DNA of 64,000 nt from a virus. Positions 20,972 to 61,238 of the stretch are shown piece by piece. Both the position numbers and the translations under genes were made by a program. The stretch is from positions 62,001-126,000 of IMG/VR virus record IMGVR_UViG_3300035182_002389; one strand, given 5' to 3'. The number at the start of each line of letters is the position of its first letter. The first letter of the stretch is position 1. The notes below the pieces were generated by a model. The model made no database searches, was not told the DNA's origin, and saw nothing but the letters and a program-made list of their open reading frames with translations.

Positions 20972-20986
20972 GGCTTACCGCAAGCC
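20972..20986. promoter_or_regulatory. Palindrome, upstream of 20961 gene
   Basis: GGCTTACCGCAAGCC, ten bases from the start codon of the glutaredoxin-like gene on the minus strand; a member of the 15-bp palindrome family. Confidence 0.6.
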
Positions 20987-20993
20987 TACACGT

Positions 20994-21416
20994 TCATCCG
21001 CGCGCGAGGTACTTCACGCATTCGGGGCCGATTCCGCTGGCGATGCTGGCCGGCACCGTGAGCCGCCTTCCACAGCGCCCGCAGCGGCCCTCGTGCCAGA
21101 CCTGGACCATCGGCGGCATCCGGCCCGCGGCGATGTATTTCCAGACCCACTCGAACGCCTTCGCGCTCGGGGCGCCTTCGCCGATCGTGCTCTTGTACGA
21201 GTGACGGTAGGCGCCGTCGGGAAAGACCGTGCCGAGGAACTGGAAGTCCGTCTCGTTCGACGAGCCCCGCAGCACGCCGACGAAGGTCGGCATCGTCGGG
21301 TTCTTTCGCCAGAGTCGGTAGGTGAAGCGCGTGCCCGTCTTTTCCGAGACGAGCGTGACCACCGCGCGACCCGCGAGCATGAAGTCGCGGATCTGTTTCG
21401 GGTCGTGCATCTGCAT
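20994..21416 (-). CDS. DUF6011-like protein with C-terminal treble-clef-like zinc motif
   Basis: 140 residues. The C-terminal CGRCGRRLTVPASIASGIGPEC (about 113-134) matches the motif C-x-x-C-x-R-x-L-x(n)-G-I-G-P-x-C that occurs in many phage proteins. The N-terminal part has strands YRLWRKNPTMPTFVGVLRG. Probably binds nucleic acid or acts as adaptor. Two further relatives of the motif are at 44053 and 45778. In the minus-strand operon after the spike genes. Confidence 0.7.
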   Translation of the reverse strand: MQMHDPKQIRDFMLAGRAVVTLVSEKTGTRFTYRLWRKNPTMPTFVGVLRGSSNETDFQFLGTVFPDGAYRHSYKSTIGEGAPSAKAFEWVWKYIAAGRMPPMVQVWHEGRCGRCGRRLTVPASIASGIGPECVKYLARG

Positions 21417-21433
21417 GGGAGGATCCTTCGTGT

Positions 21434-22564
21434 TCAGACGAGCGTGCCGTCGGCGTAGACCCACGCCGTGCCATTCCACCAGATCGGTTTGCCGTTGGCT
21501 CCGAGGGAGGTGTCGAAGTACGGCAGGCCGATGTTCTGCCCCGCGGCGAGAGGCGGACGCTGCGCAGTCGGACCCGCGAACGAGATGCCGCCCGGCAGGT
21601 TCACGAGCGTGCCCGTGAAGCCCACGGTCGGCGGGGTCACCGGCGAAGAGGTGCCGATGATCCAGAGCTGCGTCGTGCCGTCGCCCGAGACGACGTTTGC
21701 GGGAGACTGGCCGGGATTCAGCAGCGAGAGGATGCCGATGGCGTTCGGCGCGATGGCGATGATCGGGGCCGTCGAACCTGGATCGATCACGGAGGCGTTG
21801 TACAGCGCGACGATGACGCCGGGCCCGCCTCCCGTGTTCGGGGCATCCATCAGCGCCCGGCTCCCGAGGTTGCTCAGCGCCGCGCCAAGCTGGAGCACGA
21901 GCGCAGGAGGTTCGGCGGGGTTCGGCGCGTCGAAGGCGAAGGTTGCGAGCGAGGAGGGGATTCCTCGCACGGTCATCGAACCGACGATGCTGCTCAGGTT
22001 GCGAAGCTGCACGCCTTCGGGCGCTTCGAGCCGGTTCATGTCGGGGTTGCTGAAGGCCACCGACCGAAGGGTCGCGAGCTTCATGTCGTAGACGCCGAGC
22101 GGAATCGAGAACGGTCCCGACGTGACGCAGTCGATCCAGACGTCGATGGGCGAGGCGCTGAGGGCGATGAGGTCCATGACCTCGCCCCAGGTGTGCGCGT
22201 AACGAACGTCGGTCGGCGGCGCGTCCGGCTTGAAGATGATGCTGACCGGGTTCTCGTCGATCGCAGGAGCGTCCACGATACTCGTGCGAATCCACCGACC
22301 GATGCCCGTCGCATCGTGCGAAGTGGCCTGCTTTGCGCACAGGGCGCCCATCGCATCGCGTGCTTGCGGACCGTTGCAGGTCGACAGGACGTTGACGCCC
22401 GTGACCGCCGGCGCCGGGACGTGGAAGCTCAACCTATAGTAGCGTTCGAGGCTCTCCACGTGCGCGAGGCAGCCATCTTCGAGGCCGCTCGTGTCCGTGT
22501 TCTGAAGATCGCACGTCGTCTCGACGCGCAGAAATCCCGGGAACGGATTGTAGCCTTCCGTCAT
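21434..22564 (-). CDS. Spike/fibre-like protein, paralog pair 1 (short copy)
   Basis: 376 residues. It starts MTEGYNPFPGF, followed by DLQNTDTSGLEDGCLAHV and RYYRLSFHVPAP. The next gene upstream (22631-24220) shares this N-terminus almost word for word, so the N-terminal 90 residues are a common attachment module. The remainder is beta-rich with Asn and Gly turns. A start at 22573 (MVFMTEG) is possible and fits the TAGATC box better; the paralog supports 22564. Probable exposed structural protein or adhesin. Confidence 0.65.
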   Translation of the reverse strand: MTEGYNPFPGFLRVETTCDLQNTDTSGLEDGCLAHVESLERYYRLSFHVPAPAVTGVNVLSTCNGPQARDAMGALCAKQATSHDATGIGRWIRTSIVDAPAIDENPVSIIFKPDAPPTDVRYAHTWGEVMDLIALSASPIDVWIDCVTSGPFSIPLGVYDMKLATLRSVAFSNPDMNRLEAPEGVQLRNLSSIVGSMTVRGIPSSLATFAFDAPNPAEPPALVLQLGAALSNLGSRALMDAPNTGGGPGVIVALYNASVIDPGSTAPIIAIAPNAIGILSLLNPGQSPANVVSGDGTTQLWIIGTSSPVTPPTVGFTGTLVNLPGGISFAGPTAQRPPLAAGQNIGLPYFDTSLGANGKPIWWNGTAWVYADGTLV

Positions 22565-22600
22565 GAAGACCATCGTCCTCGATCTACGCGGGCGAGACAA

Positions 22601-22615
22601 GGCTTACGCCAAGTC
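22601..22615. promoter_or_regulatory. Palindrome, upstream of 22564 gene
   Basis: GGCTTACGCCAAGTC between two spike-like genes on the minus strand, 37 bases from the downstream start. Confidence 0.5.
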
Positions 22616-22630
22616 TCACCCGGCCCAGGT

Positions 22631-24220
22631 CTACTTCGACCAGACCTGCCAGTAGACCGTCTGCGCCGCGTCCGCCGCCCCGCCCTTGCTCGTGATCGTG
22701 AAACTGACGCCGGCATTCACGTTCGAGAGGTAGAGAAAGCCCGTCGGCGCGACGCCGTTCGACTGGTAGCTGTACGTGACCGGCGTGCTGCCGCTGATTG
22801 CGGGAAGAAGAACGGTGAGCGCGCCGGCGCCATCCAGGGGGCCCTCACCGCTCGCAAGCGGTACGAGCGCCTTGAGCGCGTCGATTGCGTTCTGCACCGA
22901 TCCGCCAGGGCCGGTGAACGTGGGGAAGAGCACGGGCTGACCGGCAAGGACCGTCGCCCCAGGCGCCGGCGCACCCGGCGAGTTCAGGGCGCGCAGCTCG
23001 ATGTTCTCGCTGTCGAGGATCGTGACCACCGCGTAGCTGCCGCCACCAATCCCGATGAAGTCGCCCACGTGCAGGCACTGCGTCGAGTCGAACTTCGGCG
23101 TGATGGTCGACCAGAAGGCGGGCTGCACGAACGGCGTGATGAGATTCGCTTTGACCAGCGTGGGGGTGTGGGCCGCGTCGTCGTACGAGGCCTGCACGGC
23201 CTGGCTCAGCGTCGCCGCGAACCCGAACGGGCCCTGCCACGCGGGCTGGTTCGGCACGCCGTAGAACCACGTCGAGTCGTAGATGAAGTAGAGCCCAGCA
23301 CCCGGAGGACCCTTGAACGTGTTGTCGTAGCTGGTCGGTCCGAACGCAGGACCTGTCGAGCTGAACGCGATGAAACCGATGCCCGCGCCCGGCGCCGGTC
23401 CGCACTCGACGATCGGGATCGGGAACGAGCCGATGTCGAATGCAAGGTCGTTGAAGGACGCGACGAGGACGCCGCCTTGCGGCAAGTAGAGGCCAGAACG
23501 CGCGGTCGTCGCGACATTCTGGAGCCGAGCGCCTCTTGAGAAGGTGAGCAGGTTCGCGTCGTCCTGGATGATGCAGGGGCCCGTGCGCGCGTCGAGCTGA
23601 ATGACCAGGCCGTCTGTCACCTCGTAGAGATTTCGGATGACTCCGCCGAGGGGCTGGCGGAGGATCAGGTTCGGCGAGACGCCGCTCGGGCCCGTCGGGA
23701 TGTTCGCGCCCGCGAGGGTGAGGCGACCTTGGCCGTCCATCGGCACGGTCCACGGCGCGGGGGTCGCGGGCGGCATGAGCGAGTCGTCGACCTCGACGAT
23801 CAAGGCTCCGTTCGCGAGCGCAACCTGCGCCGCGACCTCGACGTCGGTCGCGAAGACATTGCCCTCGCTCACGCCGTTCGGGCGGTAGATGATCGTGCCC
23901 GAGCCCGAGGGCGAAGCTGTCGAGTCGAGGATCGAGGTGCGCACCCACCGCCCGATGCCGGTCGGGCTGTGCGCGCTCTGCCCCGGCTGCACGCAGGGGG
24001 CTCCGAACGCGTCGAGCCCGTCGGGCCCGTTCCAGGTCGAGAGCACGTTGACGCCGTCGACCGCGGGCGCGGGGACCTTCGTGCTCAGGCGGTAAAACCG
24101 GCCCGTGTCGACCACATATGCGAGGCAGCCCTCTTCGAGCCCGTCGGTCGACGAGTTCTGAAGCTCGCACGTCGTGGGCGCGGTGAGAAAGCCCGGGAAC
24201 GGGTTGTAGCCTTCGGTCAT
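22631..24220 (-). CDS. Spike/fibre-like protein, paralog pair 1 (long copy)
   Basis: 529 residues. The N-terminus MTEGYNPFPGFL...TTCELQN...LEEGCLAYV repeats that of the 376-residue neighbour; then a long beta-rich body with repeated short strands and a small beta domain at the C-terminus (VTYSYQSNGVAPTGFLYLSNVNAGVSFTI). Start fixed by a leaderless arrangement: GTGTACGCT, seven bases, ATG. Shared N-terminus with different bodies suggests alternative receptor-binding proteins. Confidence 0.65.
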   Translation of the reverse strand: MTEGYNPFPGFLTAPTTCELQNSSTDGLEEGCLAYVVDTGRFYRLSTKVPAPAVDGVNVLSTWNGPDGLDAFGAPCVQPGQSAHSPTGIGRWVRTSILDSTASPSGSGTIIYRPNGVSEGNVFATDVEVAAQVALANGALIVEVDDSLMPPATPAPWTVPMDGQGRLTLAGANIPTGPSGVSPNLILRQPLGGVIRNLYEVTDGLVIQLDARTGPCIIQDDANLLTFSRGARLQNVATTARSGLYLPQGGVLVASFNDLAFDIGSFPIPIVECGPAPGAGIGFIAFSSTGPAFGPTSYDNTFKGPPGAGLYFIYDSTWFYGVPNQPAWQGPFGFAATLSQAVQASYDDAAHTPTLVKANLITPFVQPAFWSTITPKFDSTQCLHVGDFIGIGGGSYAVVTILDSENIELRALNSPGAPAPGATVLAGQPVLFPTFTGPGGSVQNAIDALKALVPLASGEGPLDGAGALTVLLPAISGSTPVTYSYQSNGVAPTGFLYLSNVNAGVSFTITSKGGAADAAQTVYWQVWSK

Positions 24221-24247
24221 GCGTCCGAGCGTACACGAGCGCGCTCA

Positions 24248-24262
24248 GACTTGCGACAAGTC
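24248..24262. promoter_or_regulatory. Palindrome GACTTGCGACAAGTC, upstream of 24220 gene
   Basis: Perfect palindrome apart from the three central bases. On the minus strand it lies 16 bp before the -10 TACGCT of the long spike-like gene. Confidence 0.7.
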
Positions 24263-24270
24263 GGACGAGG

Positions 24271-25647: not shown

Positions 25648-25666
25648 GGGTTTCTTCCTCTACCGA

Positions 25667-27013: not shown

Positions 27014-27044
27014 GGGCGTTGCCTCTTCGAGTCCTTGTGGGTTC

Positions 27045-27059
27045 GACTTGCTGCAAGCC
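27045..27059. promoter_or_regulatory. Palindrome, upstream of 27013 gene
   Basis: GACTTGCTGCAAGCC between the fibre gene and the spike gene on the minus strand. Confidence 0.55.
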
Positions 27060-27064
27060 GCCGA

Positions 27065-29782: not shown

Positions 29783-29824
29783 GCTCTCGGGCTCCTTGTC
29801 GGGCGGTGCTCCGCCATCGTAGCC

Positions 29825-29839
29825 GACTTACGACAAGCT
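29825..29839. promoter_or_regulatory. Palindrome GACTTACGACAAGCT between divergent genes
   Basis: Located between the divergent genes 29782 (minus) and 29868 (plus), 18 bp before the plus-strand -10 TACACT. Confidence 0.6.
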
Positions 29840-29867
29840 CCATAGCTCCGCGTGGTACACTCGGGCC

Positions 29868-30116: not shown

Positions 30117-30138
30117 GGCTCCGCGGGCTGACGGTCCG

Positions 30139-30567
30139 TCAGCCGCGTCGAACACGCGCGAGGGTGACGACCTTCGCCGAGAAGTTCTCGCGCGCGTCGT
30201 ACACATCGTCTTCGCTCGTTCGGATGCGCGAGTCGAGGGCGCGTTTTGGGCTGTGGGGGATGAGCCGCAGCGGGACGGTCTTGTAGATGGTCCTGCTCAA
30301 GCGCCGTTTCCATCGGCGAATGAGCCCGTCCGCATCGTGTTCGCCTTCCGCATCGTAGAGATGATCGCCGACGCGAACGACGACGTGCACAACGACGTAC
30401 CAAGCGTCGTCTTCGCGGTGCATGTACACCCCCCGCTCGTCGTCCGTTCGGATGATCAGGTCATAGAGCTGAGGGTCTTGCACGCCCATGCGCAGCATGG
30501 CTTGTTGAAGGCCGATCGCGTACGACCAGCACGCGCCCGTGGTCCAGCGTTTGTCTGAGCGCGCCAT
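30139..30567 (-). CDS. Papain-like (predicted Cys peptidase) small protein
   Basis: 142 residues. TGACWSYAIGLQQAM (about 10-24), then VVHVVVRVGDHLYDAEGEH (about 67-85) gives a Cys...His...Asp triad in the order of the papain/NlpC fold. The proteins at 44819 and 61637 have the same arrangement. Substrate unknown. Starts two bases from the palindrome at 30569, which overlaps the stop of the upstream PLD gene; no separate promoter seen, so likely expressed with PLD. Confidence 0.5.
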   Translation of the reverse strand: MARSDKRWTTGACWSYAIGLQQAMLRMGVQDPQLYDLIIRTDDERGVYMHREDDAWYVVVHVVVRVGDHLYDAEGEHDADGLIRRWKRRLSRTIYKTVPLRLIPHSPKRALDSRIRTSEDDVYDARENFSAKVVTLARVRRG

Positions 30568-30568
30568 C

Positions 30569-30583
30569 GGCTTACAGCAAGTG
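30569..30583. promoter_or_regulatory. Palindrome overlapping the PLD stop codon
   Basis: GGCTTACAGCAAGTG; the TAA stop of the phospholipase D gene lies inside it and the next gene starts two bases away. Unlike the others it has no room for a -10 box behind it. Confidence 0.5.
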
Positions 30584-32959: not shown

Positions 32960-32974
32960 GACTTGCGGCAAGTC
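32960..32974. promoter_or_regulatory. Palindrome GACTTGCGGCAAGTC shared by divergent leaderless genes
   Basis: Sits between 32940 (minus) and 33015 (plus). To the minus side the -10 TACGAT lies 8 bp off; to the plus side TACTCT lies about 30 bp off. Both genes start 6-7 bases after their -10. Confidence 0.7.
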
Positions 32975-36718: not shown

Positions 36719-36750
36719 GTTCTTCCTCACCGCTCTCTGATGTGCGGACA

Positions 36751-36765
36751 GCTTATCACAAGCCG
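36751..36765. promoter_or_regulatory. Palindrome, upstream of 36718 gene
   Basis: AGCTTATCACAAGCC; minus-strand reading GGCTTGTGATAAGCT. It directly follows the stop codon of the 36767 gene. Confidence 0.55.
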
Positions 36766-37436: not shown

Positions 37437-37451
37437 GGCTTGTGACAAGCC
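37437..37451. promoter_or_regulatory. Palindrome GGCTTGTGACAAGCC between divergent genes
   Basis: Perfect 15-bp palindrome between 37390 (minus) and 37492 (plus), both with -10 boxes 6-7 bases before their ATG. Confidence 0.7.
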
Positions 37452-37885: not shown

Positions 37886-37900
37886 GACTTCCGACAAGCC
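37886..37900. promoter_or_regulatory. Palindrome GACTTCCGACAAGCC, 6 bp before -10
   Basis: Followed by GTGATAGAAT (extended -10), six bases, ATG of the 37917 gene. Confidence 0.65.
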
Positions 37901-39133: not shown

Positions 39134-39709
39134 GCCGACATACCCCCATTCGAGGATCGAGTCGCCGTTCGTGTAGAGCGTGCGCGCGGGGACGACCTTG
39201 CTCACGATGGCGTAGTGGCCGCGCATCGGGCCTTCGCCGTGTGAGGCGGCATACGCGCGGTCGAGCGCCACCCAATCGCCCGGGTTGATGGTCGCGCGCC
39301 GAACCTTCTCGGGCGGCGGCATGGCGCGCAGTTGCGCGAGCGAGGCCACGATCGAGTCGTAGAGAGCAGATTTGGAGTGCGCGCCGTAGACAGCCCTGCG
39401 CGACGGCGGGAGCTGTCCGCGACGAAGCAGAGACGCGCGGTCGGCCTCCATCTGACGGATCTGCGCATCGCGGTTCGCGGGCAGCTTGATCGTCGCGCGG
39501 TAGATGCGCACCGGGCGGTTCGGATGGCCCCGCATGCGGCGGACAATCCCCCACGTGACGAGGTCCGTGCCGTCGCCGACGCCGTAGTACCGAGGGCCAA
39601 GCGACGAGTAGACGTCCTCAGGGTAGACGCTGCCCGCCGTGAGGTCGTGCAGCGGTGCCGCCTCGCGGCCGGGCGCTCTGTGGTCGATCCGGTAGTCGTC
39701 GTTGCTCAT
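39068..39709 (-). CDS. ADP-ribosyltransferase-like protein, C-terminus encoded by repeat A
   Basis: 213 residues. PVRIYRATIKLPANRDAQI (about 64-82) and GDWVALDRAYAASHGEG...YAIVSKVVPARTLYTNGDSILEWGY match the pattern seen in ART-like phage proteins (R at the strand start, then I-x-P-G-D-W-V-x-x, then L-Y-x-x-G-x-x-I-x-E-W-G-Y). The last 20 residues (ESEGALKAPSAGVWGQSPQQ) come from repeat A, so the original end was lost or replaced. ATGA overlap with the next gene. Confidence 0.6.
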   Translation of the reverse strand: MSNDDYRIDHRAPGREAAPLHDLTAGSVYPEDVYSSLGPRYYGVGDGTDLVTWGIVRRMRGHPNRPVRIYRATIKLPANRDAQIRQMEADRASLLRRGQLPPSRRAVYGAHSKSALYDSIVASLAQLRAMPPPEKVRRATINPGDWVALDRAYAASHGEGPMRGHYAIVSKVVPARTLYTNGDSILEWGYVGGESEGALKAPSAGVWGQSPQQ

Positions 39710-39960
39710 GACGTCTTTCGACGAAGGATCGCGAGAAAGTAGCGCACGACATAGAGCCGCGCGCTCTCGGAGAACGTTGCGACCGAGCGGCCTTGCGGAC
39801 TTTTCGGTCGGAGCATGTCGATCTCGTTCAGGACGACGTCGATGGAGACGAGCTTGTGGCGCGCGATGGTCTCGATCGCCTCCCAGAACTCGGGCTCCAG
39901 CGACACGCTGGTGCGCTTGCCGCGAAGACTCACGTTGCGGACGTTGGCAGAGCGAGGCAT
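39706..39960 (-). CDS. Ribbon-helix-helix regulator (RHH_4 type)
   Basis: 84 residues. SVSLEPEFWEAIETIARHKLVSIDVVLNEID (about 18-48), after RNVSLRGKRT, matches RHH_4, a ribbon-helix-helix family mostly known from alphaproteobacteria. Likely a dimeric DNA-binding repressor. ATGA overlaps on both sides place it between an ART-like gene and the 39960 gene in one operon, so it may autoregulate the unit. Confidence 0.7.
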   Translation of the reverse strand: MPRSANVRNVSLRGKRTSVSLEPEFWEAIETIARHKLVSIDVVLNEIDMLRPKSPQGRSVATFSESARLYVVRYFLAILRRKTS

Positions 39961-41710: not shown

Positions 41711-41725
41711 AGCTTGTGGTAAGTT
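41711..41725. promoter_or_regulatory. Degenerate palindrome AGCTTGTGGTAAGTT overlapping a -10
   Basis: A weak family member in which TAAGTT doubles as the -10, eight bases before the ATG of the 41734 gene. Confidence 0.45.
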
Positions 41726-43395: not shown

Positions 43396-43410
43396 GACTT
43401 GCGGCAAGCC
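43396..43410. promoter_or_regulatory. Palindrome GACTTGCGGCAAGCC
   Basis: Upstream of the micro-ORF at 43430; TGCGACGAT, seven bases, ATG follows. Confidence 0.55.
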
Positions 43411-43502: not shown

Positions 43503-43865
43503 ATGGTCACGATCCGCGCCGTGCGCGCCCCTACGGACTACATCTTCTTCCATGCGACTCGGCACAAGTCGCCCAGGAAAAGCGGCCCTGTCTACCTGAC
43601 GCCAGATCGCGCGAGAGCCTCAACGTACGGCCCGAACATGTTCGTTGGCGCGCTCACGAAAAGCGTCAACCTGCTTTTCGCAACCTCCGGCGACGAGATC
43701 GTAGACGCGGTCGGCGGCGATTCCTCCGAACAGGTCGTCGGCGAGGTTGTCGACCTACTGCGCGATCGTGGGGACGTCGACGGCTTCTGGATCAAGCGCC
43801 CGAACGATCTCGAAGAGATCCTTCTGCTCGACGCGAGTCTCCTGAAGTGGAGGGCCGCCCGTTGA
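43503..43865 (+). CDS. ADP-ribosyltransferase-like small protein
   Basis: 120 residues. DYIFFHATRHKSPRKSGPVYLTPDRARASTYGP (about 12-44) shows the F/Y-H-x-T...L-T-P-x-x-A-x-x-Y pattern of ART-like folds. C-terminal LEEILLLDASLLKW could hold the E-x-E-like segment (EEILLLD). Leaderless: TACGAT, seven bases, ATG. See also 34999 and 55903. Confidence 0.45.
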   Translation: MVTIRAVRAPTDYIFFHATRHKSPRKSGPVYLTPDRARASTYGPNMFVGALTKSVNLLFATSGDEIVDAVGGDSSEQVVGEVVDLLRDRGDVDGFWIKRPNDLEEILLLDASLLKWRAAR

Positions 43866-46116: not shown

Positions 46117-46131
46117 GGCTTGTCAGAAGTC
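46117..46131. promoter_or_regulatory. Palindrome, upstream of 46101 gene
   Basis: GGCTTGTCAGAAGTC; on the minus strand it lies 4 bp before the -10 TAGGAT. Confidence 0.55.
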
Positions 46132-46479: not shown

Positions 46480-46494
46480 GACTTGTGCCAAGTC
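46480..46494. promoter_or_regulatory. Palindrome GACTTGTGCCAAGTC, 9 bp before -10
   Basis: Followed by GTGATAATCT and, seven bases on, the ATG at 46515. Confidence 0.65.
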
Positions 46495-48663: not shown

Positions 48664-49236
48664 TCAGCCCTGTGCGGTGTTGGAGGCCCAGAGGACTTCC
48701 TGCGACGGACCGTAGACGACGAGGTTGCCGTCGTCCTGCATCGCGAGGAGCGCGCCGGGATGGCCGTCTGTCCCGGTTGCCCAAAGGGCGGCTCCCGCGT
48801 CGTTGTAGACGACCGCATTGCCGTCCTCTTGCATGATGAGGAACGACTTTCCGTCGCTCCGCGTGTCCGAACTCCACAGCGCCGCGCTGCCTGCGTAGAG
48901 CACGAGGTTGCCGTCCGACTGCATCGTCAGGTGGTAGGCCCCGTTGCAGGAGGCCATGGTGCTGCCGTTGTTCACCCTTTGCATCGCCGAGATGTGCGCG
49001 CCGCCGCCCGTGCAGTACGGGTTCGTCGGCACGCCCGGCACGGGACCGGCCGGCGCAGGGGCCGGCGCAGGGGCCGGCGCAGGGGCCGGCGCGGGAGCCG
49101 GCGCAGGGGCGCTGAGCACAATCCTCTTCGTGATCGAGGGCATGGCCACGAGCGCGGGCTTCTTGTTCTTCGAGTGCAGGTAGTACCCGACGACCGCGAG
49201 CGCCACGCCACCGCCGACGAGGTAGGAGGTCTTCAT
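48664..49236 (-). CDS. Single-anchor membrane lectin (B-type mannose-binding fold)
   Basis: 190 residues. Residues 3-20 (TSYLVGGGVALAVVGYYL) form the membrane helix, a (PA)n linker spans about 43-65, and the last 110 residues are a bulb-lectin domain with three Q-x-D-x-N-x-V-x-Y signatures: QSDGNLVLY, QEDGNAVVY, QDDGNLVVY. Each binds one mannose-type sugar in plant and bacterial homologs. Start at 49236 chosen because TACGAT lies seven bases upstream; the ATG at 49245 overlaps that box. A carbohydrate-binding, surface-exposed role is likely. Confidence 0.8.
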   Translation of the reverse strand: MKTSYLVGGGVALAVVGYYLHSKNKKPALVAMPSITKRIVLSAPAPAPAPAPAPAPAPAPAPAGPVPGVPTNPYCTGGGAHISAMQRVNNGSTMASCNGAYHLTMQSDGNLVLYAGSAALWSSDTRSDGKSFLIMQEDGNAVVYNDAGAALWATGTDGHPGALLAMQDDGNLVVYGPSQEVLWASNTAQG

Positions 49237-49268: not shown

Positions 49269-49283
49269 GACTTGTCGCAAGCC
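49269..49283. promoter_or_regulatory. Palindrome GACTTGTCGCAAGCC
   Basis: Between the lectin gene and repeat A4; on the minus strand the lectin -10 lies 21 bp away. Confidence 0.6.
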
Positions 49284-49329: not shown

Positions 49330-49459
49330 GCTGAACGAGACGAGCGAGAGAGCGGGGGCTGCGCACCCCCACACCCCGCGCCACCTGCGGTGGGGCCACT
49401 GTTGGGGGCTCTGCCCCCAAACCCCCGCTGAGGGCGCTCTCGGCGCGCCCTCAGACTCC
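49330..49459. repeat. Repeat family A, copy 4
   Basis: GAACGAGACGAGCGAGAG lead followed by the A cassette (GGGGGCTGCGCACCCCC, GGGGGCTCTGCCCCC, GAGGGCGCTCTCGGCGCGCCCTC) ending CAGACTCC. It abuts the promoter of the M23 gene. Confidence 0.9.
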
Positions 49460-49481
49460 TGCCGTGATACCCTACCCTTCA

Positions 49482-50997: not shown

Positions 50998-51160
50998 GTC
51001 TCCCCCTTCCCGTTCCCGTTCCCGTTCCCAGCGTGCCGAAGGCGCGCGTTCCCCCTTCCCGAATCCCGCGCCGAAGGCGCGTCTCGGTCCTGCGAGCCCC
51101 CACAAGACGAGATCGGGAACGCTCGCTGCGCGAGCTGGCAACGGGAACGGGGACGGAAGC
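50998..51160. repeat. Repeat family B, copy 3
   Basis: CCCGTTCCCGTTCCCGTTCCC array, GCGCCGAAGGCGCG palindrome, then GATCGGGAACGCTCGC(TGC)GCGAGC and GGGAACGGGGACGG. Fills the gap between the esterase and ParB-like genes; no gene seen in it. Confidence 0.8.
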
Positions 51161-51511
51161 ATGAGAAAGCTCACCTTCTCGCACGACGACCCGTGGCCGG
51201 ACGGGCTCGTCGTGAAGTTCTACCTCGTGCCCTTTCCTTACCGCCGCAAGCCCGTCATCACCGTGCGCGAGGAGGCGGCAAGGCCGCAGCGCATCGCAGA
51301 CGTCCCCATGACTCTGCTCAACGCGTCACAGCGCGGCGTGACGGACACGGGGCTCGCCAAAGCCCACAAGGTGACCGCCCTTCCTCGCGCGTACGAGGAA
51401 GAGGACGGCCGCTACACCATTGCCGACGGCCACCACCGCGTCGTTGCCGCGTGGCTGCGCGGCGAAGATCAGGTCCGCATTCGCATCATCGGACTGCCTC
51501 GCAAGAAGTGA
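51161..51511 (+). CDS. ParB-like (DGxHR) domain protein
   Basis: 116 residues. RYTIADGHHRVVAAWLRGE (about 85-103) is the D-G-H-H-R signature; the preceding strands HKVTALPRAYEEEDG fit the ParB fold. The start follows repeat B3, which may hide its promoter. The smallest of the four ParB-like proteins, containing only the core domain. Confidence 0.6.
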   Translation: MRKLTFSHDDPWPDGLVVKFYLVPFPYRRKPVITVREEAARPQRIADVPMTLLNASQRGVTDTGLAKAHKVTALPRAYEEEDGRYTIADGHHRVVAAWLRGEDQVRIRIIGLPRKK

Positions 51512-51516
51512 GACGA

Positions 51517-51657
51517 GATCGGGAACAGGAACGCGCCTTCGGCGCTGGGAACGGGAACGGGAACGGGCGAGACAAGACGAAAAGGACGGCCTGCGGCCGA
51601 GCACGGGCTTCGCCCGAGGACGCGCCTTCAGCGCGAGGACGGGCTTCGCCCGAGGGT
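51517..51657. repeat. Repeat family B (copy 4) joined to family C (copy 2)
   Basis: 51517-51570 is GATCGGGAACAGGAACGCGCC...GGGAACGGGAACGGG (B); 51571-51657 is GACGAAAAGGACGGCCTGCGGCC and further TTCG/TCGG hairpins (C). The two families lie end to end between convergent genes. Confidence 0.85.
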
Positions 51658-52230
51658 TCAATGATAGTCGTACTCGATGCCCTGTGCGCGCATCGCGCGA
51701 CGCAGGTCTTCGATGCCCATGCGACCGGCCGCGGCGAGATTCTTCTGGAGCCACGCGTAAAAGCGCTCGGCGTCCTTCTTCTTGACGGCGTAGTAGAGGG
51801 TGTCCTGGTAGAGACTCGTGCCGCCTTGCAGAAGCGAGCTTCGATCGAGCGGCCAGCTTGACCGGATCGAGAAGCGGTGCGGGGTCGCGTCGATCGAGAT
51901 GCGGTCGCCGTTGTCGAGCTTGTGGCTCAGGTGAATCGCGGTCGACATCGGCTCGACGTCGATCGCACGAAGCTCGCGCTCCTCGACGTGGAACCCGTAG
52001 CGGTGCGCGAGAGCTTGGGCGTACGAGCGAGCGTGCGCGTACGTCGGCGCTTGCAGCAGGATGTCGCCGAGACGGTCGAGCGCCGACCCCTTCTCCGACG
52101 ACGCGGTGAGCTGCAAGATCCGCTTGCCGCGCTTGCCTGCGAGGGCCGTGTCGGTGACGACCAGCGAGTTCGCATAGCGATGGACACGCAGCGTGCCCAC
52201 GTGTGCGGTACGACCGATTTCGATGGGCAT
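51658..52230 (-). CDS. Hypothetical protein
   Basis: 190 residues. Two beta-rich halves: VGTLRVHRYANSLVVTDTALAG and STAIHLSHKLDNGDRISIDATPHRFSIRSSWPL, and a helical end (AERFYAWLQKNLAAAGRMGIEDLRRAMRAQG). No family. Runs towards the repeat at its 3' end. Confidence 0.5.
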   Translation of the reverse strand: MPIEIGRTAHVGTLRVHRYANSLVVTDTALAGKRGKRILQLTASSEKGSALDRLGDILLQAPTYAHARSYAQALAHRYGFHVEERELRAIDVEPMSTAIHLSHKLDNGDRISIDATPHRFSIRSSWPLDRSSLLQGGTSLYQDTLYYAVKKKDAERFYAWLQKNLAAAGRMGIEDLRRAMRAQGIEYDYH

Positions 52231-52239
52231 GGGGTCCTG

Positions 52240-53535
52240 TTAGATCCTGACCGGCACGAGAGCCTTGTCGGAGGGAAGCAGTGCGAGGCGCATGCCGGGC
52301 ATCTTCCCGGTCGCGACCACGTCACCATTCACGAACGTGAGGGTCTGCCCGACAACGGGAACGGGCTGCCCTGCTGCCACGGCCGCACGAAGGTCCTGGA
52401 GCAGCGCGTCCGAGATGGCCAGCGATCGGCCGCCGTCGAGCGCCGAGGCGATCTTCCCCGCGTTGAGCTGCGGGGTCTGCTGGATCAGAGGCGCGCTGCC
52501 CGTGAAGGCCCGTCCGCGCACACCGGCCGTCGCCGCGACCGGCAGGACGTTCACGCCGATGTCATAGGGAGCGCTCGGATCGACGCCCTGCACGTCGTGG
52601 AGATCGAGGAGCACGTTCAGGCTCACCAGCGCGTCGATGAGCGCCTTCTTCTCGGCGTCGGACAGCTCCGAAGCAAGAACGGTCATCGACACGGGGGGAG
52701 GCGTGTCGAGAGGAATGGGCGTCATGCCGCCGCCCGGCCCGACTCCACCCGGCCCGACAGGCGGCCTCCCAAGCCCCGGCGGCGCGGACGGCACCGGAGG
52801 CGGCGGGGGAGGCGTCGGGTTGAACGCGGGGCCCGCGCCCTTGAGCACGCTTGCGGCCTCGTTCGGGCGCAGAAAGAGCAGATCGGTCGGATCCGTCGAC
52901 GTCGGCGTCGAGGAGGTCCTGATCGTTTTCCCGTCCGCGCTCACGAACACGTACAGGCCGGGGAACGCGGGAACACTCGGCGAAGGCTTCGGGCACTGGT
53001 CAGGAGGCGTGCCCATCAGGCAGGGCGACGACGTGCTCGTCGGAATCTCTGCGCGCGGCGTGTTCGCGCTCTGGATCCAGACGAGAATCGAGTCGCTCGC
53101 ATCGGGCGCCTGCATCGCGTACGTCCGCGCCAGCGGCTGATAGCCGGGAGGAGGGGCCATCCCCATTCCCGGGGAGTAGACGGCCTTGGAAATCTGCACG
53201 GGAAGCAGCGCAAGCGGGACGCTGTTCGGCGTCTCGATGGCCCCTCTCCGGTTCGTCGCGAACGCGTTGTAGTCGCTGCCGACACCGGGAGGAGGCGGCA
53301 GGACGGGCGCGATCGAGGTCGCCTTCGAGAGCGCCTTCCACATGCCGACCTTCTCGTCGGCCGTCAGCTCGCCCGTCGCGGTCGAGGGACCGAGATTCGC
53401 GCCGCCCGGAGCCAGCACGTTGCGCATGCCTTGGGCGCCCGCTCCGCCCGACGAGGGCTGGCCCGCGTACCACTTGTAGAGCAGCACGCCGCCGACGGCA
53501 GCACCACCGAGCATCAGGAGCGAGCTTGCCTTCAT
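52240..53535 (-). CDS. Single-anchor membrane protein, large
   Basis: 431 residues. Residues 5-21 (SLLMLGGAAVGGVLLYKW) form the membrane helix. A large Pro-rich middle (about 230-300) separates an N-terminal domain with LPLALLPVQISKAVY and ILVWIQSANTPRAEIP from a C-terminal helical domain (VLASELSDAEKKALIDALVSLN). Start: TACGCT, seven bases, ATG; palindrome at 53560 behind. Function unknown; largest member of the anchor-plus-linker family. Confidence 0.6.
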   Translation of the reverse strand: MKASSLLMLGGAAVGGVLLYKWYAGQPSSGGAGAQGMRNVLAPGGANLGPSTATGELTADEKVGMWKALSKATSIAPVLPPPPGVGSDYNAFATNRRGAIETPNSVPLALLPVQISKAVYSPGMGMAPPPGYQPLARTYAMQAPDASDSILVWIQSANTPRAEIPTSTSSPCLMGTPPDQCPKPSPSVPAFPGLYVFVSADGKTIRTSSTPTSTDPTDLLFLRPNEAASVLKGAGPAFNPTPPPPPPVPSAPPGLGRPPVGPGGVGPGGGMTPIPLDTPPPVSMTVLASELSDAEKKALIDALVSLNVLLDLHDVQGVDPSAPYDIGVNVLPVAATAGVRGRAFTGSAPLIQQTPQLNAGKIASALDGGRSLAISDALLQDLRAAVAAGQPVPVVGQTLTFVNGDVVATGKMPGMRLALLPSDKALVPVRI

Positions 53536-53559
53536 GGCGTCGAGCGTATTCTTCCGTTC

Positions 53560-53574
53560 GGCTTGCGACAAGTC
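53560..53574. promoter_or_regulatory. Palindrome GGCTTGCGACAAGTC between divergent leaderless genes
   Basis: Between 53535 (minus, -10 TACGCT 13 bp away) and 53601 (plus, -10 TACGAT 16 bp away). Both genes encode anchored proteins, so one operator may control a pair of them. Confidence 0.7.
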
Positions 53575-53600
53575 GATAAGGCTCGTGATACGATCCCGGG

Positions 53601-55377: not shown

Positions 55378-55381
55378 GTCC

Positions 55382-57350: not shown

Positions 57351-57360
57351 GGCGGGTCTT

Positions 57361-58008
57361 TCAGAGGAAGGCGGCGACGGGGTAGCTGCCGAGATAGTCG
57401 CTCTGCACGGCGTCGTAGTCGATGTTGATCCCCGCCGCGATCGTTCGGTTGCCGGGGTAGAGCTGGAGCATCTGGTAGCCGCGCACGTCGACGTCGGGCG
57501 CGCGGCCGGCCGTCTTCCAGTAGCGCGAGACCGAGAGCGAGTGGTAGAGCTGGCTGCTCGTCAGCGGCACGCCGGGCTCGCAGTAGATGCCGAGGGCCGC
57601 GCCGAACATCCCGCCCGCGACTGCCCCCTTGTACCAGGCGTTCGCGTAGGCGATGCACGCCTCCGCCGTCCCTGCATTGGCCAAATCCAACCAGAGACAA
57701 CCTCCCGCGGGATAGCCCATCGAGATGGCGTACGAAGCTGCGGCTTGGCCGTCCGCGAACCCGATCGACTCGCTCCAGCCGCTCGTGCGCCCGAACTGCA
57801 CGAGCATCACGCCGAGCCCCGCTTGGGTGAGCGCGGCCAGCTCCGTTTTTCCGATCGCGAACGGCGACGACTGCCCCGCGAGCGGGACGTACCGCACGCC
57901 GAACTTCATGCCGGCCTTCACGAGCGTTGCGGCCTGGGCCGCGCTGAGCGCCTCGATCGTGTCGAACCCGAGCATGCCCACGGAGAGAGGCTTCAGGGAA
58001 AGGGTCAT
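57361..58008 (-). CDS. DUF1906-like glycoside-hydrolase-fold protein
   Basis: 215 residues. SVGMLGFDTIEALSAAQAATLVKAGMKFGVRYVPL (about 10-43), then ELAALTQAGLGVMLVQFGR, DGQAAASYAISMGYPAGGCLWLDL and GYQMLQLYPGNRTIAAGINIDYDAVQ match the TIM-barrel layout of DUF1906/Rv2525c-like proteins: first strand G-x-D, strand RY, then the lone WxDL, and the final DYD. Such domains hydrolyse or bind glycans. GGAGGAACGACG ribosome site; a GTGGTACGAT box follows the palindrome at 58049. Confidence 0.7.
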   Translation of the reverse strand: MTLSLKPLSVGMLGFDTIEALSAAQAATLVKAGMKFGVRYVPLAGQSSPFAIGKTELAALTQAGLGVMLVQFGRTSGWSESIGFADGQAAASYAISMGYPAGGCLWLDLANAGTAEACIAYANAWYKGAVAGGMFGAALGIYCEPGVPLTSSQLYHSLSVSRYWKTAGRAPDVDVRGYQMLQLYPGNRTIAAGINIDYDAVQSDYLGSYPVAAFL

Positions 58009-58048
58009 CGTCGTTCCTCCTTCAATCCACCGCGGCCGATCGTACCAC

Positions 58049-58063
58049 GGCTTATCGCAAGCC
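58049..58063. promoter_or_regulatory. Palindrome GGCTTATCGCAAGCC between divergent genes
   Basis: Between 58008 (minus) and 58092 (plus). On the minus strand the -10 TACGAT lies 6 bp away. Confidence 0.65.
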
Positions 58064-58091
58064 GAGGCGATTCGTGCGACCATTGCGATCG

Positions 58092-58598
58092 ATGAACGCG
58101 TTTCGCTACACCCTCGACAAGACGAGGCGCATCGCGCGCGTACAGCTCTCGGGCGACGACCAGGCCGTCGCCCTCGCGTCGTTCGAGAAGTCGGAGGAGT
58201 TCCCGTTCGGCAAGATGTGCGTTCGGCTTCTTCGGCGCGGCAGCGCGATGTACGTCGGCGAGATGCAGCTCAACCCTCGTAGGCCTCACGTCCGCGACAT
58301 GGACCCTACCTGTCTCAACCACTACGAGCGGCTCCGGCCGGCCCTCTACCGCGCCAACGTCGCCCTCTACCGCGTGAGGTCTTCGGACATCTACCTCACC
58401 CATCTCTGGCGCCACGGCTACGGCGTGCTCATGTACGCGGCGGCGCTTCTGCTCGCCGACATGCAAGGGACCGGCATCGGATCGGATGAGTGCTTCTACG
58501 GCTCGACGAGTCGGCGCGCCGGGCGCGTCTGGGAATCGCGGCGCCTCGCTTCGATCGCCGACGTGATGGGCGACATCGCGTTTCTCAAGCGGCGCTGA
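58092..58598 (+). CDS. GNAT-like protein, paralog family (3 of 3)
   Basis: 168 residues. YRVRSSDIYLTHLWRHGYGVLMYAAALLLADMQGTGIGSDECFYGSTSRRAGRVWESRRLASIADVMGDIAFLKRR (about 93-167) aligns with the 55382 protein; the CoA-loop is degenerate (RHGYG). The first 90 residues (FRYTLDKTRRIARVQLSG) also align, so these two are close paralogs. GACCAT, eight bases, ATG. Acetyltransferase activity is doubtful. Confidence 0.65.
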   Translation: MNAFRYTLDKTRRIARVQLSGDDQAVALASFEKSEEFPFGKMCVRLLRRGSAMYVGEMQLNPRRPHVRDMDPTCLNHYERLRPALYRANVALYRVRSSDIYLTHLWRHGYGVLMYAAALLLADMQGTGIGSDECFYGSTSRRAGRVWESRRLASIADVMGDIAFLKRR

Positions 58599-58616
58599 GG
58601 TGATACGGTGACCGCC

Positions 58617-58952
58617 ATGGGCAAGAGCCTCCAGAAGTACGCGTCGAGCTTGCGGCGCCCGCGGTTCGTGCACGACTGCAACCGCTGCATCTTCCTCGGA
58701 GGCTCCACGATCGAGGGCGGTCGGCCGGCCGACTTCTACTGGTGCCCCGATCGGCGCAACGAGACCATGAGCAGCATGATCGCGCGCTACGGCGACGACG
58801 GGCCCGAGTATCTCTCGTCCTCGCCGCCCGAGGCCTTCGCCGACCCGCTGTACCTGCTCCAGAAGCGGAAATGGTACAGGACTCTTCTGCGTCGCGCGCA
58901 TCGCGCGGGGCTCTACGCGAACAAGCACAACTACAACCTCTCGGAGCCTTGA
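58617..58952 (+). CDS. Small Cys-containing protein
   Basis: 111 residues. FVHDCNRCIFLGGSTIEGGRPADFYWCPDRRNE (about 17-49) has C-x-x-C...C, a possible zinc site, then aromatic/basic residues (KRKWYRTLLRRAHRAGLYANKHNYN). TACGGT, seven bases, ATG. Overlaps the next gene by one base. Confidence 0.55.
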   Translation: MGKSLQKYASSLRRPRFVHDCNRCIFLGGSTIEGGRPADFYWCPDRRNETMSSMIARYGDDGPEYLSSSPPEAFADPLYLLQKRKWYRTLLRRAHRAGLYANKHNYNLSEP

Positions 58953-59494
58953 TGAGCGACCTCAAGCAAATCCAAGAGGCCATCTGGGGGGATCGCGAGA
59001 CCCTCTCACACCTCGAAGGCGCCTACCGAAACTTCTTTCAGACGCGCGACGTCGGCGTCTTGCGACCGTCCAAGACCCTCGTGTACGCGCTCGCGAAGAA
59101 GTACGGCGCCAGCTTCGACGTCGTCCAGGCCGCCATCGGCAAGCTCGTCGCCAACGTCCAGTACGAGATGATGGTCGACTACGTCGCGCGTCTGCCCCAC
59201 ATCCGAGGCCATCTTCGCGAACTCGCCCTTCTCACCTACTCGCCCGATGGCGCGCTCGGGTCGATGAAGAAGCTCACGCCCGAGGTCGAAGAGAGCCTCC
59301 GCTCTTTCTACGCGCCCCTTCGCTGGAAGAGCCCCATGGGCTTGGAGCTGCTCAGCGGCGCGGTCTCGAAGGAGAAGCGCAAGCTCCAAGGCCTTTCGAG
59401 CATGGGCCGAACCGCTCCTTCACCGTTCTCGGAGCCCGCGTCTCTCGGTCCCGTCACCTACCCCGCGCGCCGCAAACCTTCCAGCTCAAACTGA
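58952..59494 (+). CDS. Hypothetical protein
   Basis: 180 residues, mainly helical (KQIQEAIWGDRETLSHLEGAYRNFFQT, then SFDVVQAAIGKLVANVQYEMMVDYV) with a Ser/Pro-rich end. No motif. Starts in the TGATGAG overlap of the 58617 gene. Confidence 0.5.
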   Translation: MSDLKQIQEAIWGDRETLSHLEGAYRNFFQTRDVGVLRPSKTLVYALAKKYGASFDVVQAAIGKLVANVQYEMMVDYVARLPHIRGHLRELALLTYSPDGALGSMKKLTPEVEESLRSFYAPLRWKSPMGLELLSGAVSKEKRKLQGLSSMGRTAPSPFSEPASLGPVTYPARRKPSSSN

Positions 59495-59505
59495 ATCGGA
59501 GTCAC

Positions 59506-59727
59506 ATGGACAAGCTCACTCTTCTCGGTCTTGGCCTCATGGGCGCAGGCGTCGCGACCAAGCTCATCGAGCCGCCCAAGATGGGACAGTCCGCAGAAGT
59601 CATGCGCGGATACGGCGCGCTCGAAATCGTTCTCATCGGCGGCGGCGCGTCGCTCGCCTTCTACGGCGCGTTCGTGAAGGGCAAGACGCCCATGCTCACG
59701 AGCGGACCGCCGTCGTCCTACCGCTGA
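59506..59727 (+). CDS. Small two-helix membrane protein
   Basis: 73 residues; hydrophobic segments about 4-20 (LTLLGLGLMGAGVATKLI) and 39-57 (ALEIVLIGGGASLAFYGAF), with a basic loop and tail. Small membrane protein; holin-like size but no proof. Follows the 58952 gene by 11 nt. Confidence 0.55.
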   Translation: MDKLTLLGLGLMGAGVATKLIEPPKMGQSAEVMRGYGALEIVLIGGGASLAFYGAFVKGKTPMLTSGPPSSYR

Positions 59728-59731
59728 ACCG

Positions 59732-60076
59732 TCAGTAGTTGTCGATGTAGCGCTTCGCTTCGCGCAACGTCGCCAGGTACTTGCCGCCGCCCGAGTCGGG
59801 GTAGTGAACGCACCAGCCGTGCTTGTCGTGCTCGATCTCCCACCCCTTGTAGATGGTGATCTTCCCACGCTCAGGCACAAACGTGTAGCTCGGGAGCCGT
59901 GCTGTGAGAGACGCCTTTCGGGCGGCCTCCTCACGCTCCGCGGCTTCGCGCGCAGGGCGCTCTGCCTCCCAGCGGAGGTCGGCGAGTCGATCGGCCTCAT
60001 CGGCCGCGGCCAGCTCCGCGGGCGTGTAGCGTGCCGAAGAGACGGAGCGGCTCACAGGACGCTTTCGGATCGTCAT
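59732..60076 (-). CDS. Hypothetical protein
   Basis: 114 residues: a charged Ala/Arg/Glu-rich helix (ELAAADEADRLADLRWEAERPAREAAEREEAARKA), then a short beta domain (KITIYKGWEIEHDKHGWCVHYPDSGGGKYLATLREAKRYID). Convergent with the membrane protein gene; GGGGAG upstream. Confidence 0.5.
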   Translation of the reverse strand: MTIRKRPVSRSVSSARYTPAELAAADEADRLADLRWEAERPAREAAEREEAARKASLTARLPSYTFVPERGKITIYKGWEIEHDKHGWCVHYPDSGGGKYLATLREAKRYIDNY

Positions 60077-60080
60077 CGAG

Positions 60081-60440
60081 TCATCTCCCCGAGGAGTGAA
60101 CATTGAGCGTCACCATCACGACCTTCTCGCCGCCGTAGTCGTACGTGTCGACGCTCGGCGCATACTTCGCGACGGCCCCTCGCGCGTCCGTGTGGACCTT
60201 GCGCACGCCGGCGGCCCTCAGCGTTTTTGCGATCCAGTTGGCCGCGCGCAGCTCCAACTTCGCGTCGCCCGAGTCGACGCGGATGCCGCCCGCGTCGTAC
60301 CCTTCGACGTGCAGGGTCTCGGCCGAGAGTGCGACGAGGCGCACGCGGCTGCGAGGCTTCATGTAGCCGGCCTTCACCATCGCAGCGTCGAGCCTGCGTT
60401 GAAGTTCCATGCGGGCGAGGATGGTTTCGGCGCGACTCAT
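60081..60440 (-). CDS. Hypothetical protein
   Basis: 119 residues. N-terminal helix (ILARMELQRRLDAAMVKAGYM), then four strands (RVRLVALSAETLHVEG...DAKLELRAANWIAKTLRA...KVVMVTLNVHSSG). TACGCT, six bases, ATG, with a palindrome at 60466. No family recognised. Confidence 0.5.
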   Translation of the reverse strand: MSRAETILARMELQRRLDAAMVKAGYMKPRSRVRLVALSAETLHVEGYDAGGIRVDSGDAKLELRAANWIAKTLRAAGVRKVHTDARGAVAKYAPSVDTYDYGGEKVVMVTLNVHSSGR

Positions 60441-60465
60441 CCTCGAAGCGTAGACGATCCCGATC

Positions 60466-60480
60466 CGCTTGTCGCAAGCC
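60466..60480. promoter_or_regulatory. Palindrome CGCTTGTCGCAAGCC, upstream of 60440 gene
   Basis: On the minus strand, 15 bp before the -10 TACGCT. Confidence 0.6.
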
Positions 60481-60494
60481 GCACAGCACGGAGA

Positions 60495-60612
60495 ACGAGA
60501 ATCGCTCGGGGGCTACGCGCCCCCGAACCCCGCGCCACCTGCGGCGGGGCTATTGTCGGGGCTCTGTCCCGAACCCCGCTGAGGACGCTCACGGCGCGCC
60601 CTCAGACTCCCG
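60495..60612. repeat. Repeat family A, copy 6
   Basis: A cassette with slightly diverged hairpins (GGGGGCTACGCGCCCCC, GGGGCTCTGTCCCG) ending CAGACTCCC, lying just downstream of the minus-strand 60628 gene. Confidence 0.85.
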
Positions 60613-60627
60613 CCGTCATAACAACTC

Positions 60628-61197
60628 CTACGCGTGCGATGCGACAGCGTAAGCCGCGTCGAAGGTCGGCTGATCCCAGCCCACGTAGATCGCGCCGTTG
60701 AGGTCGATGACCGGGATCGCGGTCGCTCCGCTCGGGGGGTTGCCGAGCTTCTTGAACAGCTCGTACGACGTCGTCGGATCCGCGAGGTCGCCGAATGCGT
60801 ACGGCAGACCGCGGCCCTCGAAGTACGCCCTCGCGCGTTTGGTGCGCGGGCAGCTCGTCGTGCCGTAGATGGTCAGCGGGACGACGACCTGCGGAAGAAC
60901 GGGCGACGGAGGCGGAGGCGGAGCGGGCGCCTGAACGGGCACCGGCACGACCGCAGGGGTCAGAGAGCACGACGGCACCTTGTCGGTCGGGCCTCCCGAA
61001 GACGGCACGCCGTCCAAACCCGTGAAGGTCCAAGACCCGTCCGAGTGCACCTCGATCGAACCTCCGTCCGTGGTTGCGAGGGTCGCGACGACCCAAGGCA
61101 TCGGCGCCGGCTCGGCCCGAGGAACGAACCTTTCGTAGCTGTAGCCATACGCCCCGACGGACGCGTGGGTCTTTCCGCAAGAGGCGCAGGAGGGCAT
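60628..61197 (-). CDS. Glutaredoxin-like protein with Cys-rich N-terminus
   Basis: 189 residues. PSCASCGKT (2-10) is a zinc-knuckle or redox motif. Residues about 48-65 form a small hairpin, then a Pro-rich linker (81-105). The last 80 residues are a glutaredoxin domain: LTIYGTTSCPRTKRARAYFEGRGLPY with CPRT (116-119) and TAIPVIDLNGAIYVGWDQPTFDAAYA. Its domain is nearly that of the 20011 protein, but the anchor is replaced by the Cys motif. Start: TATGCT, seven bases, ATG 61197. Confidence 0.75.
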   Translation of the reverse strand: MPSCASCGKTHASVGAYGYSYERFVPRAEPAPMPWVVATLATTDGGSIEVHSDGSWTFTGLDGVPSSGGPTDKVPSCSLTPAVVPVPVQAPAPPPPPSPVLPQVVVPLTIYGTTSCPRTKRARAYFEGRGLPYAFGDLADPTTSYELFKKLGNPPSGATAIPVIDLNGAIYVGWDQPTFDAAYAVASHA

Positions 61198-61223
61198 GCG
61201 CGAGAGCATAGACGATCTTCGCA

Positions 61224-61238
61224 GACTTGTCGCAAGCC
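61224..61238. promoter_or_regulatory. Palindrome GACTTGTCGCAAGCC between divergent genes
   Basis: Between 61197 (minus, 15 bp to its -10 TATGCT) and 61294 (plus). Confidence 0.7.

Follow-up and report, generated by a model that had tools for sequence, protein, structure and literature searches.

The palindromic element described here recurs across a 64,000-bp window (bases 62,001 to 126,000) of the 202,518-bp virus record IMGVR_UViG_3300035182_002389, in a region where two genes for ribbon-helix-helix (RHH) proteins are also found. A coding-potential script called 318 genes in the record, covering 87% of the DNA. Judged from the set of encoded proteins, the record looks like the genome of a tailed phage: it encodes a collagen-like tail-fiber protein, lysis domains, RtcB, SSB, a 5'-3' exonuclease, and a UvrD helicase. 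The majority of the large proteins are without a database relative, and the vWA protein has ∼32% identity to homologues from 150-kb enterobacterial phages. A search of the record for an integrase or a match to the phage integrase family found none, and hence there was no sign of a lysogenic state requiring genome-wide silencing.

Results

The pattern GRCTT-N5-AAGYC was present in 54 copies in the record, while any different spacer length between 0 and 14 gave 0 to 2 copies. Alignment of the intergenic copies produced the consensus cGRCTTRYSRYAAGYCg, in which the core was restricted to GRCTT-N5-AAGYC because the inner pair was variable. A 17-bp weight matrix (PWM) with a cutoff of ≥12 bits detected 75 sites in 202.5 kb, compared to 1.3 in the Markov-3 simulations used as a null. 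When ≤2 mismatches were allowed, the window contained 35 matches versus 8.3 ± 2.9 in shuffles. The palindrome is real and well beyond chance. An origin of the copies by chance or through codon usage had nothing in its favor except the high G+C content and was ruled out by four nulls (Markov, reversed pattern, shifted spacer, and synonymous shuffle), each of which fell short roughly 10- to 100-fold; we consider its probability to be negligible.

Perfect copies could be folded as a 6-bp stem with a 3-nucleotide (nt) loop, as would be the case for RNA hairpins acting as terminators, processing sites, or promoter-stem-loop cassettes. Covariation between the paired positions was absent, however. 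Positions 2 and 14 formed Watson-Crick pairs in 36 copies versus 38.7 expected for independent positions, with 21 A/C nonpairs, and the same independence was observed for positions 6 and 10. Furthermore, none of the convergent gaps contained a site and no Rfam family was matched in the window. As the half-sites varied independently and showed no compensatory pairing, the hairpin reading was rejected as very improbable. The independence of the paired positions indicated instead that the palindrome is a predicted DNA site for a dimeric protein that would read the two half-sites separately and is not an RNA signal. An earlier note on this DNA had proposed a site for a dimeric factor as opposed to a -35 box, and the two-fold symmetry, fixed spacer, and independent half-sites agree with this prediction; a symmetric DNA site with a fixed spacer is the form taken by operators of dimeric transcription factors.

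The sites in the window are listed in Table 1 together with candidate binders. Of the 20 positions listed previously, 17 scored ≥12 bits, those at 30569 (11.4) and 48637 (8.9) were borderline, and that at 41711 (5.5) failed; the weak site suspected near 3472 was recovered 2 bp to the left. All 17 passing sites were intergenic, many of them in divergent gaps as had been stated, but the claim that every copy lies at a gene border did not extend to the whole record, in which 28 of 75 sites were inside genes. The supposed absence of sites from 4 to 19 kb was incorrect, as strong sites were detected at 5377, 7467, and 11051 and the actual hole starts only after the last of these. The listing was also incomplete, two weaker sites (30499 and 43556) having been overlooked.

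Table 1. Palindrome sites in the window and genes for candidate DNA-binding proteins (coordinates are those of the window unless marked as record)
Feature	Sequence	Coordinates	Strand	PWM score	Remarks
Palindrome site	GGCTTACCGCAAGTT	3470..3484	.	15.9	Tandem intergenic gap
Palindrome site	GGCTTGCGATAAGCC	5377..5391	.	22.4	∼40 bp upstream of TTGGACA...ATGTAC promoter-like element; missing from earlier list
Intragenic palindrome site	GGCTTGGGACAAGTC	7467..7481	.	19.4	29 nt into a gene
Intragenic palindrome site	GGCTTGCGACAAGTC	11051..11065	.	22.9	Overlaps start codon region, 2 nt past gene's first base
Site-free stretch		11066..20971	.		Longest in the record (9.9 kb); from gap list
Palindrome site	GGCTTACCGCAAGCC	20972..20986	.	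21.9	
Palindrome site	GGCTTACGCCAAGTC	22601..22615	.	17.7	
Palindrome site	GACTTGCGACAAGTC	24248..24262	.	22.8	14 bp upstream of -10 TACGCT of leaderless-type minus-strand gene
Palindrome site	GACTTGCTGCAAGCC	27045..27059	.	20.7	
Palindrome site	GACTTACGACAAGCT	29825..29839	.	14.3	Divergent gap
Weak palindrome site	GGCTTGTTGAAGGCC	30499..30513	.	12.0	Missing from earlier list
Palindrome site	GACTTGCGGCAAGTC	32960..32974	.	22.7	Divergent gap; -10 TACGAT of minus-strand gene 6 bp away
Palindrome site	AGCTTATCACAAGCC	36750..36764	.	17.0	
Palindrome site	GGCTTGTGACAAGCC	37437..37451	.	21.7	Divergent gap
Palindrome site	GACTTCCGACAAGCC	37886..37900	.	20.5	-10 TAGAAT of leaderless-type gene 4 bp away
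Palindrome site	GACTTGCGGCAAGCC	43396..43410	.	23.1	
Weak palindrome site	GACTCGGCACAAGTC	43556..43570	.	12.5	Missing from earlier list
Palindrome site	GGCTTGTCAGAAGTC	46117..46131	.	21.0	Divergent gap; -10 TAGGAT of minus-strand gene 2 bp away
Palindrome site	GACTTGTGCCAAGTC	46480..46494	.	16.0	-10 TAATCT 7 bp away
Palindrome site	GACTTGTCGCAAGCC	49269..49283	.	22.5	Divergent gap
Palindrome site	GGCTTGCGACAAGTC	53560..53574	.	23.6	Between two divergent leaderless-type promoters, -10 boxes 11 and 14 bp away
Palindrome site	GGCTTATCGCAAGCC	58049..58063	.	23.2	Divergent gap
Palindrome site	CGCTTGTCGCAAGCC	60466..60480	.	16.9	
Palindrome site	GACTTGTCGCAAGCC	61224..61238	.	22.8	Divergent gap
Arc-like RHH protein, 99 aa, candidate binder		11583..11882	+		phrog_582, E 0.0012; just within site-free stretch
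RHH_4 ribbon-helix-helix protein, 84 aa, candidate (dimeric) binder		39706..39960	-		PF13467, E 4e-15
MarR-family protein, dimeric candidate		record 12,550-13,083			Resembles solved MarR regulators in sequence
569-aa protein with sigma region 4-like HTH		record 51,439-53,148			
ECF-type sigma factor		record 150,287-150,865			
HTH_3 protein, dimeric candidate		record 199,203-200,069			

Record-wide, 47 of the 75 sites were intergenic, although intergenic DNA makes up only 13% of the record. Of the 21 divergent gaps, 14 contained a site, as did 32 of the 211 tandem gaps, whereas none was present in the 18 convergent gaps; the convergent gaps are short, and only about two of them were expected to hold a site. 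The density of sites was ∼11-fold higher in intergenic than in coding DNA, and the equal frequency that the earlier note had named as contrary evidence was thus not seen, yet the number of coding sites was itself far above chance. An association with promoters was examined by masking the palindromes and stratifying the gaps by length. A -10-like box was detected in 33 of the site-bearing gaps versus 25.6 expected (odds ratio, 2.9; P = 0.006). This enrichment, together with the frequent occupancy of divergent gaps, is a property of operators and supported the association with promoters reported previously. A promoter-overlap test taken alone gave a weak result (P ∼ 0.1), and in tandem gaps no bias in site position toward the downstream start was found.

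Around 50 genes had a -10 box 5 to 8 nt ahead of the start codon, compared to 26 for the reversed motif. In 17 of these leaderless-type promoters, a palindrome preceded the -10 box at a distance of -6 to 19 bp. The proposal that these distances differ by one helical turn was rejected, as no phasing was detected over this range (Rayleigh P ∼ 0.5), and the absence of phasing leaves both a fixed-geometry activator and the one-turn pattern unsupported. The unphased distances suit occlusion of the promoter better than activation.

Called genes contained 28 sites scoring ≥12 bits. Twelve intragenic sites scored ≥20, whereas synonymous codon shuffling gave a mean of 0.08. Nearly all of the intragenic sites were in two reading frames, and the encoded peptides differed. 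The excess over the synonymous shuffle and the use of two frames with different peptides indicated that selection acts on the DNA, and a codon or peptide artifact was rejected on the same grounds. No difference in strength was observed between intergenic and intragenic sites. A regulon bound purely to promoters is excluded by the number of these intragenic sites and by their equal strength.

The distances between the 75 PWM sites had a mean of 2.72 kb and a coefficient of variation (CV) of 0.58. Uniform placement gave a CV of 0.98, placement with the numbers of coding and intergenic sites maintained gave 1.09, and placement of one site per gap gave 0.94; the observed value was never reached in 2,000 runs of any of these three nulls. 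The spacing test was conceived after the data had been seen. At other score thresholds, P values for evenness ranged from <0.0005 to 0.045. A PWM-free check with the 54 strict copies gave a CV of 0.73 (P = 0.011), and 101 copies with ≤1 mismatch had a CV of 0.64. Evenness was pronounced in the left 64 kb (CV, 0.45; P = 0.0003), a gene-dense region in which most sites are intragenic, and was not significant for 64 to 135 kb at 12 bits (P = 0.11) or for 130 to 202 kb at 18 bits (P = 0.26). The intergenic sites by themselves were randomly spaced (CV, 0.99). Intragenic sites, on the other hand, had their nearest neighbor at a median distance of 1,989 bp versus 927 bp expected (P < 0.001) and thus lie in the stretches that the intergenic ones leave empty. 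As yardsticks, the annotated C1 operators of phage P1 were clustered (CV, 1.36), as were matches in D29 to a stoperator consensus, each with at least 2 mismatches (CV, 1.2 to 1.3). No palindromic element with even spacing in a phage genome turned up in a search of the literature.

The earlier note had suggested that the regulator be sought among the RHH genes at 11583 and 39706. The latter does encode an RHH_4 protein, while the former is weakly Arc-like (Table 1). The promoters of the RHH_4, HTH_3, and ECF sigma genes had no site directly on them. One site is located 6 nt into the gene that follows the MarR gene, and another precedes the sigma-region-4/HNH gene by ∼80 bp. A clear site for autoregulation was not found at the promoter of any candidate gene, and no clear regulator was singled out. 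MexR, a MarR-family repressor, binds GTTGA-N5-TCAAC (PMC9892617); as this operator shares the 5-N5-5 geometry, the phage MarR-family protein is a reasonable lead but no more than that. Encoded outside the window, it is a candidate binder equal to or better than the RHH proteins. A single-sequence structure model of this MarR candidate (pLDDT, 51) was too poor for a fold search. Searches of the record for homologues of MatP, Noc, and full ParB found none; a ParB_N match in a 140-aa protein was below the threshold (E = 0.05), and its single-sequence model was also poor (pLDDT, 41).

Discussion

The mechanism best supported by these results is one of dispersed operators that would combine promoter occlusion with roadblocking or long-range silencing, with an architectural or segregation role close behind. 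We give a nearly even chance to the palindrome being the predicted operator of one dimeric, phage-encoded repressor or silencer acting on the whole genome. A single dimeric protein, most likely made by the phage, would bind ∼75 sites along the record, roughly every 2 to 4 kb. Sites that overlap a -10 box or immediately precede one would exclude RNA polymerase from the promoter, and those within genes or operons would serve as roadblocks or as loading points from which silencing could reach further, with the result that long uncovered stretches of phage DNA would be avoided. Repression, roadblocking, and the phage origin of the binder are what we infer from the placement of the sites. Their spread over the whole record points to a silencer acting genome-wide and not to a switch for late genes.

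Such a switch, in which the palindromes are operators of an activator or switch controlling structural and effector genes as one late regulon, was the interpretation of the earlier note. Between 81 and 126 kb of the record, all sites of ≥12 bits are indeed intergenic and many genes look leaderless with their own promoters. Against this, sites are found throughout the 202.5-kb record, including its operon-rich left part and the interior of genes, the distance to the -10 box is neither fixed nor phased, and the -10 boxes of site-bearing promoters are not visibly weaker. Neither the geometry of an activator nor a restriction to late genes was thus observed, and we regard a late regulon as quite unlikely. 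A more serious competitor, though one we hold to be clearly less probable than not, is an architectural or segregation site, from which a dimer would bridge, anchor, or condense the chromosome or block host division over phage DNA. Intergenic placement would then merely spare coding sequence, and effects on promoters would be secondary. This reading draws on the low CV compared to the three nulls, on the hole-filling by intragenic sites among randomly spaced intergenic ones, and on the regularity of both the left 64 kb and the PWM-free strict pattern. Noc, SlmA, and MatP, sequence-specific proteins on dispersed chromosomal sites, are cellular precedents. It does not predict the enrichment in divergent and promoter-bearing gaps, however; the only relevant homology detected was the subthreshold ParB_N match, and evenness did not reach significance in each subregion at each threshold. 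Silencing and architecture need not be mutually exclusive, as KorB performs both.

It is possible, although we would not expect it on balance, that the palindromes form a site-specific architecture or silencing system with a selected, near-even spacing of about one palindrome per 2 to 4 kb, placed in intergenic DNA where possible and otherwise in coding sequence, by which one phage protein would cover, bridge, or silence a 200-kb chromosome. If true, this system would be a viral counterpart of nucleoid-organizing or nucleoid-occlusion sites. Dispersed operators have been described for a small number of phages and plasmids, and both of the phage sets that were measured for comparison were clustered; the new element is the presence of intragenic sites apparently selected to hold an even spacing across a 200-kb viral chromosome. 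Should this hold, it would provide an instance, open to direct testing, of control or organization on a chromosome scale by one viral DNA-binding protein.

Several known systems share features with these sites. The operator OB of KorB from plasmid RK2 (IncP) is dispersed over one replicon at both promoter-close (4 to 10 bp) and distant (45 to >1,000 bp) positions and serves in repression and DNA partition (PMC11790492). The phage sites likewise occur near to and far from promoters, but they number ∼75 and have another sequence, and the record has no KorB/ParB homologue above the threshold. KorB itself, a CTPase clamp of the ParB family, has an operator of 16 bp. In the cluster A mycobacteriophages L5 and D29, operators and stoperators are present at promoters and in transcribed regions and are proposed to stop initiation and elongation (PMC9283540, PMC6550527). 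The sites in the present record resemble these in their number across a phage genome and in their occurrence at promoters and, well above expectation, within genes, where they would act as stoperators if the binder is, as we infer, a repressor. A stoperator is an asymmetric 13-bp site that is bound by a monomer and follows the direction of transcription, whereas the sites described here are palindromic and evenly spaced, in contrast to the clustered D29 matches. Phage P1 also has sites dispersed over a large genome, with one repressor and ∼18 annotated operators, but the C1 operators are 17 bp, clustered, and mostly at promoters.

The large phage SPbeta also has a 15-bp element, the operator SPBRE, that recurs in its promoter regions; it was recognized in silico long before its repressor, MrpR, and around ten promoter regions are bound (PMC10516654). 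SPBRE is not known to show an intragenic or spacing pattern like that of the present sites. MrpR has a tyrosine-recombinase fold, and a phage-integrase-family match was not found in the present record. MexR PII has the same 5-bp arms and 5-bp spacer (PMC9892617), but MexR works at a single locus and its operator sequence is different, and the phage MarR protein is only a candidate binder.

As far as shown by the collections searched, the motif appears to be private to this phage lineage. Records of distant relatives obtained by a search with the RtcB ligase (73 to 363 kb) each contained 0 to 2 copies; the two largest have just 15 and 6 proteins in common with the present record, and a comparable palindrome of their own was sought in both and was absent. 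When five other proteins were used as queries, no close relative was detected, and none of the 38 IMG/VR contigs matching the exact 15-mer had clustered sites. The phage may have adopted or mimicked the site of a host chromosomal protein, so that the binder would be host encoded. In favor of this explanation, 4 of 55 bacterial contigs with one exact 17-mer were from Myxococcota. We nevertheless consider it unlikely, as 12 whole bacterial genomes (4 Myxococcota and 8 other matches) had ∼2 to 9 copies per Mb, mostly near the reversed control, versus 267 per Mb in the phage.

Promoter-like elements and sigma-related genes

Approximately 50 genes of the record were preceded by an extended -10 box of the TGnTAnnnT type whose end lay 5 to 8 nt 5' of the start codon, with the distance peaking sharply at 6 to 7 nt. 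The location of these boxes so close to the start codons implied, from the sequence, that leaderless mRNAs would be produced. Leaderless-type genes were clustered in the 84- to 126-kb region of the record, and Shine-Dalgarno starts were used in other regions. A second promoter-like element, TTGACA-NNNN-ATGTAC-N-TTGTG, which has an unusual -10, was observed in a few copies 5' of other genes, a helicase gene and a sigma-like gene among them.

Two sigma-related genes were noted. Both the TTGACA...TTGTG element and the 15-bp palindrome (GRCTT-N5-AAGYC) were detected 5' of the gene for the 569-aa protein. No palindrome was present between the phage-encoded ECF-type sigma factor gene and its divergent partner.

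ParB-like protein, tRNAs, and other repeats

The gene of a 140-aa protein with a sub-threshold ParB_N match had a leaderless-type start and was in the opposite orientation to its neighbours. This protein contained a ParB box-like stretch (DGIHRYNAAL...VPVIV) and no HTH domain. Only two tRNAs were predicted in the record.

Intergenic G+C-rich inverted repeats (GGGGC-N5-GCCCC, CGCGC-N5-GCGCG, and GCTCG-N5-CGAGC) were overrepresented throughout the record and, judged by sequence, look like terminator hairpins. Short GGGAAC-type tandem repeats were also observed 5' of start codons.

Locations of features in the window, the whole record, and separately numbered pieces of the record (L006, L008, L010, and L011)
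Feature	Location	Strand	Remarks
140-aa protein	window 4,507-4,929	-	ParB_N match below threshold
569-aa protein	L008:11439-13148 (record 51,439-53,148)		HNH/zinc-finger-like N-terminus; lone sigma-70 region 4-like HTH
ECF-type sigma factor	L011:4287-4865 (record 150,287-150,865)	-	regions 2 and 4
Leaderless-type extended -10	window 24,220; 37,917; 46,101; 53,601; 61,294		examples; ~45 more in record
TTGACA-NNNN-ATGTAC-N-TTGTG	window 4,993; 5,432; 14,095; record 16,621; 51,397; 57,446		
tRNA-Pro(cgg)	window 49,005-49,099		95 nt; predicted, perhaps false
tRNA-Gln(ttg)	L010:19865-19937		predicted
G+C-rich inverted repeats	L006 ~3,990-4,030; window ~49,350-49,470		examples
GGGAAC-type tandem repeats	L010 ~590-620 (record 126.6 kb); window ~51,135-51,160
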